A stretch of DNA of 46,331 nt from Aneurinibacillus thermoaerophilus (lineage in GTDB: Bacteria > Bacillota > Bacilli > Aneurinibacillales > Aneurinibacillaceae): contig NZ_FNDE01000031.1 in NCBI RefSeq assembly GCF_900099925.1, positions 1 to 46,331 of the forward strand. The letters run 5' to 3'. A program made the position numbers and the translations under genes. Of the stretch, positions 9,488 through 44,344 are shown in pieces; the stretch's first letter is position 1; every line of letters starts with the position of its first letter. The notes below the pieces were generated by a model, which saw only the letters and a list, made by a program, of their open reading frames with translations, had not been told where the DNA came from and made no database searches.

Positions 9488-10542
9488 GAAAAACAAAGTC
9501 AATTGCCGAGATCGGTGTCTATCCCCCCCCAGCCGGGGGGATTTCTGTTCATGTGGAACGTCTGTGCGATACGCTTGAACAGAAGCAAATTCCTTTTATC
9601 ATCTACGACGGCAATGGAGAAAACGGAGAAAAAAAGCGGGCCGTTGTGCCGATTCCAGAGATTGAAAAATGGGCATGGAAGTACTTGTGGCAAAAAAACG
9701 AAGACATCATCCATAATCATTTCTTGCGCTGGCAAATACGCTTTACGCTGTCCCTGTTAAAACTCAAAGGCAAAAAGATCGTTCATACCGTTCACAGTTT
9801 GCGCAATGATGGCACACAACTGGGACTTGCGCAAAAGGTAATGGTGTTTCTTACCGGCCTGCTGTCAGATCATTTTGTGGCCGTAAGCGAAGAAGTGAAA
9901 GAAAAGCTGCTGGAGCTACGCATTCCAGAACGGAAGATCTCCGTCATTCCGGCGTTCATTCCGCCAACCACTGACCTAGAAAGCGATATAAAAAAAATTC
10001 CCGACTATGTGCTGAAAACATTCACTAAATACCCGCAGGTAATTGTTGCAAACGGTGGCGTAGGCAATCTTTATAATGGCGAAGAATTATACGGCCTTGA
10101 TTTATGCATTGACATGTTTACTAAATTGGCGCGTGAAAATAAGAAGCTGGCGTTCGTATATTGCATCACACATATAGGGGAGCAGGCCTTGCTGGAACAA
10201 TATACGGAACGTATCGCGGCGCATGGCCTCGAAGAAAGGTTCTTGCTGGTGCAAGAGAAAATCCCGTTCTATCCGCTTATTCAAAAAGCCACACTATTCG
10301 TTCGGCCGACCGCGAGTGACGGAGATGCCATATCCCTAAGAGAAGCGATATATCTTGGTACACCAGCGATCGCAAGCGATGTAGTCAAACGCCCGAACGG
10401 TGTCATTACATTTGTCAACCGCGATGCAGATGATTTTACAAAAACGTGCCGTGAAGTGCTGTACGCACCACCTACCGATTTGCTTCAGTACAGGCAAGAA
10501 CAAGAGCGATACGTAGAGCAACTGCTTGATATCTTGCTATAA
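9484..10542 (+). CDS. GT4-family glycosyltransferase, last gene of the operon
   Basis: A 352-aa GT-B enzyme. The N-terminus has YPPPAGGISVHVERL (a GGI/GGV nucleotide-loop variant common in GT4) and HNHFLRWQI. The acceptor-domain end is HTVHSLRNDG, and the donor domain has RPTASDGDAISLREAIYLG in the position of the E-x7-E motif. Here the first acidic position is Asp in SDGDA, and the second is the Glu of REAI. The C-terminus is shorter than average. The start overlaps the polymerase stop by 4 bp. The product probably adds one sugar of the repeat unit whose polymerisation the upstream gene performs. Confidence 0.85.
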   Translation: MRKTKSIAEIGVYPPPAGGISVHVERLCDTLEQKQIPFIIYDGNGENGEKKRAVVPIPEIEKWAWKYLWQKNEDIIHNHFLRWQIRFTLSLLKLKGKKIVHTVHSLRNDGTQLGLAQKVMVFLTGLLSDHFVAVSEEVKEKLLELRIPERKISVIPAFIPPTTDLESDIKKIPDYVLKTFTKYPQVIVANGGVGNLYNGEELYGLDLCIDMFTKLARENKKLAFVYCITHIGEQALLEQYTERIAAHGLEERFLLVQEKIPFYPLIQKATLFVRPTASDGDAISLREAIYLGTPAIASDVVKRPNGVITFVNRDADDFTKTCREVLYAPPTDLLQYRQEQERYVEQLLDILL

Positions 10543-10890
10543 CAACATCCGCCTTTTCTTCCTCGACTTCGTTGATTTTCTACGAGGATGCGTTATCTGT
10601 CGATACCGCTTCAGCAAAAGTGGCGACCGCTTTTTCACTTTTACAGAAAATGCTGCCCTTCATCCCACGATGAAAACCGTGGAATGAAGGGCGACGTTGC
10701 TCGGGAATCCCTTCATGGGGATGCTTAGAGCAACCATTTCCTGTAGAATCAAATTCCATGAGCAGTGCTCATCCTACTGGTCACATGTTCCTGTGGATGT
10801 CATGGTATGAGGTTCTGGTAGCGAGCGGAAACGGACTGCGGACGCTAACGACCCAAGAATCCCGCGTCTTCAGCTGTGTGGAGCTTCAAT
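10543..10890. other. Non-coding gap filled mostly by an IS605-end relic
   Basis: This gap of about 350 bp has no supported ORF. The first 100 bases hold two small inverted repeats (CCTCG/CGAGG near 10574-10595, and AAAAGTG/CACTTTT near 10616-10643) without a clear T tract. They may form a weak terminator for the polysaccharide operon. The remainder is the structured element described separately. Confidence 0.6.
10651..10889 (+). ncRNA. Orphan IS200/IS605-type right end with omega-RNA-like fold
   Basis: A chain of nested hairpins is visible. The first pairs 10655-10663 with 10684-10692 (9 bp) plus CCACG/CGTGG. The next is GTTGCTC/GAGCAAC (10696-10702 / 10728-10734) enclosing ATCCC/GGGAT. ATGAGC/GCTCAT (10758-10763 / 10767-10772) follows. 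Long-range arms AGAATC/GGTTCT (10745-10750 / 10811-10816) and CCATG/CATGG close the domain. The tail is GCTAACGACCCAAGAATCCC, then a terminal hairpin and the 3' end TTCAA. This layout and the TCAA terminus match the right end of IS200/IS605 elements, where the TnpB guide (omega) RNA is encoded. No tnpA or tnpB is nearby. The end lies one base from the MocR stop codon. Confidence 0.6.
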
Positions 10891-12357
10891 TTATTGCTTT
10901 TTCCGTCCGGCTTCGATAAGCAAACGAGCCAGTCTGCGGACACCTTCCTCAAACTCCGCCGGCGACGCGTAAGCGTAAGAAATCCGCAACCGCTCCCTTT
11001 CTCCAGGATCATAAATATTTCCCGGGTTTAACAGAACACCCTGCCTGAGCGCAGATTCGAACAACTTTTGAAGCGGCGGTGCTATGAGAAGGCGCAACCA
11101 GACGTAGAAACCACCGGCTGGCGCTTCCCAATCGGCCAGCCCTTTCATATATTTTTCAAGAACTGTAAGCGCCATTTCTCGCCGTGTTCTTAACTGTTCA
11201 CGAATACGTGTAAGATGCTCCCCATATAATCCGCTTGTTAACCATTCTTTTGCCACCCACTGTGACAACGAGCTCGAACCGTAATCGGTTTGCATTTTAA
11301 TATCGGCCAGCCTCCGAATTACCGGCTCCGGTCCGATAATCCACCCGATTCTCAATCCGGGGCTCAGCGTTTTCGAAAGGCTGCCTATATAAAGGACAAG
11401 CCCGTTTTTATCGCGCGCTTTCAACGACGCTGGCGGTTTTTCATCCAACCAAAGTTCCCCGTAAACATCGTCCTCGATAATAGGCAATCGTTCATGTTCA
11501 CAGGATAGCATAAGCTGCTGCCTTGCTTCTTCCGACATTACTTTTCCGGTCGGATTGTGAAAAGAAGGAATCGTATATAATAAAGCCGCTTCGTGTTTGT
11601 GCTTATAATGTGACAAACGCGCTGGAATCATTTCCGGCTTTTTGATTTCCGGGATACCAGCAAGTCTTATCCCTGCCGACTGAAAAACACGCATGGAACA
11701 AAGGTAAGAAGGTTTCTCAAGCAAAATGGCTGAGCCGCGAGGCAATAAACCGATCGAAATGAAGTGCAGCGCCTGAAGCGCGCCGGACACGATGAGAATC
11801 GCAGAAGGCGAAGCCTGTATGCCAAATAGGCGTACGTGCTGACTCACGGCTTCCCTGAGCTCATATAACCCCAAAGGCTCCTCATATCCCAACGGTCTCA
11901 TTACTCTCGCCGTTCTTTCCAATACAAGCGCCATCATTTCAGAGGGAAACATGTCCGGCGACATCTCTCCCGTGCCAAGCCGAATCGTTCCTGGGACAAA
12001 CTCTGCTTCATTGATCCGTTGAATCATGGAAAGATTCGGCCGATGTGCCCCGGCCTCGACGTACGCTCGCCAATCCGGGGGAGCGGAGGCCGCCAGCAGC
12101 GTCCATGTATTATTTATAACCCTTGTTCCACTTCCCCTTTTTCCTTCGATTAATCCTTCTGCCGCCAATTCAGCAAACGCGTTCGTTACTGTGCTTCGGT
12201 TGACGCCAAACTGCTCCGCCAACGTTCGTTCCGGCGGAATTTTATAACCTATGGGCCACTCTCCACGTGCGATTTTTCCCCTTATATAGTGGATAATTTG
12301 CTTGTATAGAGGAACACCGCTTTGTCCATCCGGTTTCCACTCCACATTTTTCATCAT
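10891..12357 (-). CDS. MocR-type GntR regulator with aminotransferase domain
   Basis: Transcription factor joining a winged-helix GntR domain (about residues 1-75, PLYKQIIHYIRGKIARGEW and VNRSTVTNAFAEL) to a fold-type I aminotransferase domain that binds PLP. The PLP lysine is K329 in GSLSKTLSPGLRIGW. About 488 aa, normal for MocR. The start at 12357 follows AAGGAG; the open frame extends 20 codons further upstream without a ribosome site. It is divergent from a LysE exporter, an arrangement typical of a MocR protein controlling an amino-acid exporter or a PLP/amino-acid gene, so it probably regulates lysE and itself. Its stop codon abuts the omega-RNA-like element. Confidence 0.9.
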   Translation of the reverse strand: MMKNVEWKPDGQSGVPLYKQIIHYIRGKIARGEWPIGYKIPPERTLAEQFGVNRSTVTNAFAELAAEGLIEGKRGSGTRVINNTWTLLAASAPPDWRAYVEAGAHRPNLSMIQRINEAEFVPGTIRLGTGEMSPDMFPSEMMALVLERTARVMRPLGYEEPLGLYELREAVSQHVRLFGIQASPSAILIVSGALQALHFISIGLLPRGSAILLEKPSYLCSMRVFQSAGIRLAGIPEIKKPEMIPARLSHYKHKHEAALLYTIPSFHNPTGKVMSEEARQQLMLSCEHERLPIIEDDVYGELWLDEKPPASLKARDKNGLVLYIGSLSKTLSPGLRIGWIIGPEPVIRRLADIKMQTDYGSSSLSQWVAKEWLTSGLYGEHLTRIREQLRTRREMALTVLEKYMKGLADWEAPAGGFYVWLRLLIAPPLQKLFESALRQGVLLNPGNIYDPGERERLRISYAYASPAEFEEGVRRLARLLIEAGRKKQ

Positions 12358-41670: not shown

Positions 41671-42030
41671 GAAAAAAGAGTAAAAAAGAAAACCCTTTCA
41701 CCCCCCTGACTCTCCTTGAGCGTCAGTCTGGGGCGAAAGAGTTTCGCGGTACCACCCAAAATTCATTGCCGCCTCACGGTCGGCAACCTCGGCGAGTCAG
41801 CGTTCGTCCGCCGACTCTAACACGTAACGCGTGTTCCACGGCCCATCCCTACTGGAATCGCTTCGTTCAGGATAGCAACTCAGGGGTGAGATATATACAG
41901 CATTCTTATCCGGCTTCCACCATCCCGGACTCTCTAGGAAGAAGAGGCCATATACGTGTCCCCGTCAACGTTATTCTTCATTATTCTTTCAATTTTCAAT
42001 CTGAAGAACTATTAATCATTTATGATATTA
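41671..42030 (-). promoter_or_regulatory. T-box leader, Leu specific, upstream of ilvBNC-leuAB
   Basis: The minus strand has GGGTGGTACCGCG at 41757-41745, followed by a terminator (CTTTC...GAAAG outer arms at 41695-41699 / 41735-41739, then T tracts to 41671). The specifier region reads CTC then A and CCCCTGAG, which aligns with UUC-A-CTCCCGAG in the pheS leader of this window. The codon is thus CUC (Leu, 41890-41888). An out-of-frame AUC (Ile) reading is less consistent. The leader is about 360 nt to the terminator. Confidence 0.9.
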
Positions 42031-44159: not shown

Positions 44160-44224
44160 GATCCTAAAATTGCCTGATCACCTGATCAGACCACAATCCA
44201 TCTCATAAGATCAGTCATGCTTTC

Positions 44225-44293
44225 ACCCGTAGTCAGATTGTTTACGGCAATCTGGTAGAGACTTGCGAGCCATATTCCCGCGATTATACGAGC
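44225..44293 (-). promoter_or_regulatory. Guanine-class purine riboswitch aptamer
   Basis: On the minus strand: CGTATAATC, AATATGG, AGTCTCTACC, CCGTAAACAATCTGACTACG. These are the conserved P1, J1-2, J2-3 and J3-1 core. The specificity base (position 74 in xpt numbering) is C in GACTA, which marks guanine/hypoxanthine rather than adenine. A TATAAT box (44331-44326) lies upstream for the promoter, with a poor -35. Ligand binding lets the perfect terminator at 44108-44159 form and shuts xpt-pbuX off. Confidence 0.92.
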
Positions 44294-44344
44294 GTCGTTA
44301 ATGTTCGTTTTTTGCTGACGGAGTCATTATACATAATCCGCATG

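Follow-up and report, generated by a model that had tools for sequence, protein, structure and literature searches.

Here we describe a 245-bp non-autonomous IS200/IS605-type element at positions 10645–10889 (+ strand) of the window (the whole 46,331-nt stretch of Aneurinibacillus thermoaerophilus DNA analysed), which sequence comparison resolves into two ends separated by an internal deletion. It is very probably a now inert relic, similar to the palindrome-associated transposable elements (PATEs), of an ORF-less element whose parent would be a stand-alone omega-RNA gene. Further copies lie elsewhere in the genome, nothing of the element is found between the same genes in relatives, and the deletion removed most of the RNA. 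On its own the window copy is an ordinary relic; it is the relatives that matter. They also contain a structured RNA that has no match in Rfam 15.

Extent, ends and genomic copies

The element starts six bases upstream of the point (10651) from which the earlier note had read an orphan IS200/IS605-type right end. That a right end of this type is present is borne out: the last 64 nt (10826–10889) are 89% identical to the right end behind a tnpB piece on contig C27 (E 3.0e-17), they finish on the proposed TCAA cleavage sequence, and the terminal hairpin is wobble-paired as described (seven Watson–Crick pairs, two G.U pairs and one mismatch of 10). It is no orphan, however, as TTAC stands at 10641–10644 and positions 10632–10739 match the left end preceding tnpA on contig C60 (76%, E 8.3e-15). 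The subterminal-hairpin ends are thus homologous to those of IS605-type elements, as in non-autonomous members of the group. No ORF of at least 60 aa overlaps the 245 bp, so that the element is too short for a transposase, and the suggestion that such a copy could move only in trans is upheld. No target duplication is seen by eye around it. The parts of the element and its borders are as follows.

10641–10644 (+): TTAC, host-side left target/cleavage tetranucleotide, found before 16 of 19 near-complete relatives; it would be the TAM of a cognate TnpB
Between TTAC and the left palindrome (+): AGAAAATGC
10655–10692 (+): left-end subterminal palindrome, from its fold and from alignment with family left ends and that of the C60 tnpA element
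10696–10734 (+): second left-end hairpin, GTTGCTC...GAGCAAC; the same hairpin precedes tnpA on C60
10744–10749 (+): TAGAAT, decayed version of a TATAAT-like box that in the family lies 7 nt before leader hairpin 1
10758–10772 (+): leader hairpin 1, with 6 of 6 pairs the sole leader helix still complete
10773–10823 (+): remnant of the structured leader; hairpin 2 keeps 1 of 4 pairs, helices 3 and 4 lack their 3' arms
10820–10827 (+): internal-deletion junction, from alignment; the 3' half of the leader and the omega-RNA core are gone
10826–10889 (+): final 64 nt of the omega-RNA/right end, with partnerless 3' arms
10860–10882 (+): terminal hairpin
10886–10889 (+): TCAA right end
10890–10905 (+): host flank where a guide would lie, placed by analogy with ISDra2 as described in part of PMC8612924
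10891 (–): end of the MocR-family gene

A search of the genome with positions 10600–10940 (E <= 0.001) returned 13 match rows, spread over 10 places that include the window itself (12 rows at nine other places, some of which yield a second row from the other strand or a second part). Contigs C47 and C74 hold copies of 249 and 371 nt, C60 the left end before tnpA and C27 the right end behind the tnpB piece, while the other places are single ends or short pieces, such as the single right end on C49. The earlier note had staked its reading on similar right ends or further copies, and both occur, as other copies and as tnpB right ends. On C52 (L035, ~1250–1337) a very short copy has part of the left end apparently fused directly to the last bases of the right end. 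The leader is carried by the window, C47 and C74 copies; none of the three is intact, and the ORF-less parent is for this reason deduced from other genomes.

Whole-genome Pfam profile searches placed 8 tnpB-type loci (seven over the cut-off) and 12 tnpA-type loci, none of either on C75, the window's contig. The C60 tnpA, behind its similar left end, is an open frame of 138 codons that spans the entire Y1 profile. Cognate tnpB, as counted in this 103-contig assembly, appears as two pieces, N-terminal on C60 and C-terminal on C27, each of which runs into other sequence. Both pieces lie near contig ends (C60 ~17.6 kb, L032; C27 ~5.1 kb, L031). On C60 a tnpB-like stretch of another kind lies downstream on the opposite strand, as though the tnpB had been interrupted by a second IS605-type element.

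An ORF-less parent family with a structured leader

Genome G050 carries a 396-nt ORF-less copy (L155), which as a query against 398 genomes of the class, with two candidates scored per genome, matched 76, many of the matches being single ends. This copy lies at ~102.4 kb of G050:C1; a C-terminal piece of tnpA and an intact tnpB follow immediately downstream, an arrangement that resembles an insertion into tnpA. We aligned 19 near-complete copies from other Bacilli (390–453 nt, the longest with inserts), leaving out truncated copies, copies with end inserts and repeats of the same place (among them L168, L170, L179–L182, L215, L217, L218, L219–L224 and L030). TTAC precedes 16 of the 19 and TCAA ends 18, counts that are not blind, because the ends were located by seeking such motifs near the limits of homology. 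Pairs of copies within one genome give mixed break points for the fixed tetranucleotide and fixed right end (left 4/6, right 1/6). On the left, homology begins at TTAC or 1 nt before it in four of the six, including L272/L273 (98.9% over 435 nt) and L270/L271 (97.8% over 267 nt), and runs into the flank in L268/L269 (85.9%; ~40 nt) and L275/L277 (92.5%; a few nt). On the right it stops 1 nt past TCAA in L268/L269, continues ~40 nt beyond TCAA in L275/L277, and in the other four pairs ends at an insert (two), a truncated copy (one) or a contig end (one).

A short repeat with the core CGACC..GGAAGTNCCC (~26 bp by eye) occurs at six loci of ORF-less elements (L168, L170, L175, L212, L239 and L268) from three genomes, either within the left-end palindrome or in the loop of omega-RNA helix 1. 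By analogy, it may be a small mobile repeat directed at hairpin loops, in the way that SMR-A elements target the PATEs of Haloquadratum (described in part of PMC3119063).

Near-complete relatives have a covarying leader behind a TATAAT-like box, together with a complete tnpB-type omega-RNA. The leader, ~120 nt between the left end and the omega-RNA, has 27 pairs by RNAalifold, 12 of them with changes on both sides; 96.7% of its pair cells are paired and its covariation is 0.298, against a shuffled mean of 0.140 (0/500 shuffles as high) and 0.046–0.073 for slid pairings. The omega-RNA domain, aligned from 17 of the 19 copies (L171 and L175 excluded for inserts) together with two tnpB right ends, has 48 pairs, 14 with changes on both sides, 98.1% pairing and a covariation of 0.279, against 0.133 for shuffles (0/500) and 0.019–0.055 for slid pairings. 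Both covariation scores are inflated by related sequences, each structure was tested on the alignment that had yielded it, and the choice of sample favours intact copies; a count of further pair types did not rise above shuffles, 171/500 and 176/500 of which reached it. As the leader is found only in ORF-less copies, its covariation is hard to explain as inheritance from tnpB elements. Wobbles within it (four U-G at columns 71/92, three G-U at 75/89) also occur, and the U-G pairs fit RNA better than single-stranded DNA.

The TATAAT box precedes leader hairpin 1 by 7 nt; 11 of the 19 relatives have it exactly and 16 have at least five of its six letters, as counted at the best position in a 20-position range and without a shuffle control. 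Inspection by eye gave no convincing –35 box. The leader would be closed by a further stem, GTTCCTT/AAGGAAC, with five to seven of seven pairs in all 19, by a lenient test that takes the best of nine offsets and admits another 5' arm in L176, L216 and L214. The omega-RNA start follows CTAG, as it does after the tnpB stop in full elements. The parent family resembles an omega-RNA gene that stands alone and has a promoter of its own, a function that we infer.

Alternatively, the window locus could be a core-deleted copy of the genome's own tnpA–tnpB IS605 element, unlinked to the ORF-less family. Its ends do resemble the C60 left end and the C27 right end, and core deletion of IS605-type elements is known (reported in part of PMC3119063). 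Yet 10740–10823 aligns to the leader of the ORF-less family, which is absent from the C60 tnpA left end and is shared by the C47 and C74 copies. Among 30 leader loci, inspected with flanks of at most 1.5 kb that contig ends sometimes shortened, a tnpB gene adjoins L254 alone, where the copy appears to have inserted into tnpA; the remaining tnpB matches cover the initial residues of the query frame, and we interpret them as omega-RNA read-through. We therefore consider a core-deleted full element improbable.

Truncation of the RNA, and the insertion site

Compared with near-complete relatives, the window copy has lost ~160 nt. Of the 75 base pairs of the family it forms 18 (16 Watson–Crick and two G.U), with four mismatched, 30 lacking one arm and 23 lacking both, such that 53 have lost at least one arm; omega-RNA helices 1–3 are missing and helices 4–5 are one-armed. 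The corresponding totals of pairs formed are 25 in the C47 copy, 57 in the C74 copy and 72, 73 and 74 in three near-complete relatives. Our leader model, R1, scores the window copy at 22.9 bits (E 0.088). A complete omega-RNA fold is therefore absent, and the preserved fold of the earlier note gives way to a truncated one; because of that truncation, the wobbles in the last hairpin, which had been taken as a sign of retained RNA, are no evidence of it.

The long-range arm AGAATC/GGTTCT (10745–10750 and 10811–10816), on which that fold partly relied, forms 6/6 pairs in the window and C47 copies and 5/6 in the C74 copy. Its first two pairs, however, form in just 3/19 and 1/18 relatives, which leaves it unsupported as a family helix. 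The other four pairs form in 18, 17, 18 and 14 of the 19, where the columns show little variation; overall, pairing holds in 71 of 113 cells, the most of seven registers tried, with 55–60 when the arms are slid 1–3 columns one way and 23–38 the other way. The AGAATC arm overlaps the decayed TAGAAT box, and with AGAAT part of that box it would lie upstream of a transcript.

No Rfam 15 family matches the element at gathering score. Models of HEARO and RAGATH-18, structured RNAs tied to IS elements, found nothing in the window, in 10500–11000 at E up to 1, in eight loci of the family and relatives (E <= 0.5) or in four more family loci (E <= 1), the last of which gave no Rfam match of any kind. 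Loose matches to mir-205 (both strands) and Antizyme_FSE on the left palindrome fall below gathering and were rejected, as was a below-gathering SNORD34 match in L029 (2345–2426) that lies outside the element. The only gathering-level matches in the window are a T-box leader (RF00230, 97.9 bits) at 41726–41977 (–) and a purine riboswitch (RF00167, 88.8 bits) at 44210–44311 (–).

These data bear on whether the locus is instead a functional or domesticated omega-RNA that guides a TnpB in trans or regulates the MocR-family gene. The + strand does fold better than its shuffles (–93.3 kcal/mol, z –3.42; 1/200 shuffles as good), although by inspection part of that stability belongs to the left-end palindrome at 10655–10692, and the 3' 64 nt remain 89% like a tnpB right end. 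Against this stand the 53 of 75 pairs without one or both arms, the mutated promoter-like box, a cognate tnpB found in pieces only and the lack of any match to the element in six other genomes of the genus. RNA function has been lost in the window copy, and we regard a working or domesticated RNA as very improbable.

A MocR-family gene and a glycosyltransferase gene are neighbours in the same order in A. danicus (L049), A. aneurinilyticus (L050) and A. terranovensis (L056), with glycosyltransferase identities of 84%, 82% and 68% and intervening gaps of 170 nt, 193 nt and a 20-nt overlap, respectively. Among named matches, the A. danicus protein is nearest to the window's MocR-family protein, at 71% identity (the same or very near genomes may be left out). 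None of the three loci holds similarity to the window element or the L169 element at E <= 1e-3. This absence in relatives is what sets aside the domesticated RNA proposed earlier. Joining the window flanks gives a weak alignment to A. danicus that crosses the joint by way of a terminator-like stretch, and poorer alignments to A. aneurinilyticus and A. terranovensis; in none of them is the joint legible base by base. The window element matches five of 61 genomes, its own included, and none of the six others of the genus; with the 396-nt L155 copy as query, one of those six (G003) gives a 51-nt omega-RNA match. That the locus is an isolated right end with host-derived hairpins upstream is scarcely credible: single ends do exist in the genome (e.g. 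C49), but here a left end and TTAC exist, with homology to those of other copies, and the three relatives hold nothing similar at E <= 1e-3.

IS200/IS605 elements transpose as single-stranded DNA moved by TnpA. For the deleted relic of an ORF-less element that we favour, the Y1 transposase of a full element would have moved the ORF-less element in trans as single-stranded DNA, acting through the left and right hairpins, and inserted it 3' of TTAC at the end of the MocR-family gene; an internal deletion, before or after insertion, would then have spared little beyond the ends. In the parent family, a promoter behind the left-end hairpins would drive the structured leader and a complete tnpB-type omega-RNA, the guide would be read from the flank, and TnpA and TnpB would be supplied in trans. 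That TnpB might then use the RNA to cleave the donor site once it is empty, following the proposal made for ISDra2 (in part of PMC8612924).

TnpB supply in trans and comparison with known elements

Leader model R1 matched 20 of 398 genomes of the class (nine candidates scored per genome, with stricter filters). Ten match-bearing genomes, including that of the window, were searched with 150 candidates scored per genome and held two to 22 matches each, 113 in total, some of them pieces at contig ends. R1 found no leader in six other genomes of the genus, which suggests acquisition from outside. Full-length TnpB is present in five of the ten (the query's own in G050; 73–74% identical in G066, G248, G283 and G328); G372 has a TnpB without 35 residues and several cut by contig ends, and G000 (the window's genome), G230, G256 and G319 have pieces only, although those of G230 are often at contig ends, so that an intact TnpB may have escaped detection. 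Some hosts could thus provide TnpB in trans, and in others this is unproven.

Three of the 113 matches lie within 2 kb of a cognate tnpB stretch: G050:C1 (102.6 kb) and G328:C18 (50.0 kb), where the leaders look inserted beside or into tnpB elements, and G283:C2 (420.5 kb), on the opposite strand at a distance of 1.6 kb. These matches gave no close association between intact copies and an intact TnpB of the same genome. Among plasmids, eight records match, covering 19% of the L169 element in its omega-RNA part only, and no phage matches the element.

We tentatively suggest, at somewhat less than even odds, that the parent family is a transposon whose sole product is a guide RNA, parasitising the transposase and the RNA-guided nuclease of full IS605 elements, with each copy protecting its own insertion. 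The same reading, held no more firmly, takes in its patchy spread across several families of Bacilli, its own promoter and its new structured leader. If relatives of the window copy are transcribed and loaded into TnpB in trans, a guide RNA could act as a selfish gene by itself, free of any coupling to nuclease and transposase, with a bearing on how guide-only loci might originate.

Among the titles listed by literature searches, some of them in top entries only and with few subscription papers covered, none concerned an ORF-less element that has a complete omega-RNA. A 2023 report by Meers et al. is said to mention PATEs in Geobacillus, and hence part of the parent family may already be known. 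A term search of PMC12558985 and PMC9956272 gave no relevant passage.

HEARO and RAGATH-18 resemble the family as IS-tied structured RNAs, yet neither is matched in Rfam 15 by the window or by the family loci searched. IS608 (ISHp608) has TTAC as its left and TCAA as its right cleavage motif, as does the window element, but it carries tnpA and tnpB whereas the window element lacks both. The TnpB of ISDra2 is similar in having a right-end reRNA/omega-RNA guide, whose last bases come from the flank, and a target motif equal to the insertion motif (in part of PMC8612924). Its RNA matches the tnpB 3' end and right end where the parent family has a leader in place of tnpB, and it uses TTGAT where the window element and its family use TTAC.

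A close likeness is to PATEs of Haloquadratum walsbyi and Halanaerobium, which like the window element are too short for a transposase, lack terminal inverted repeats, have near-terminal palindromes common to IS605-type elements and are moved in trans, as the window element would have been (in part of PMC3119063). Core deletions of PATEs are known (in the same excerpts), as is a PATE-like ends-only sequence of ~271 nt (in part of PMC7290912). PATEs are thus already known, and the wider find is the parent family with its leader: where these excerpts describe PATEs by their ends, the family adds a complete omega-RNA and, in front of it, a covarying leader with its TATAAT-like box.
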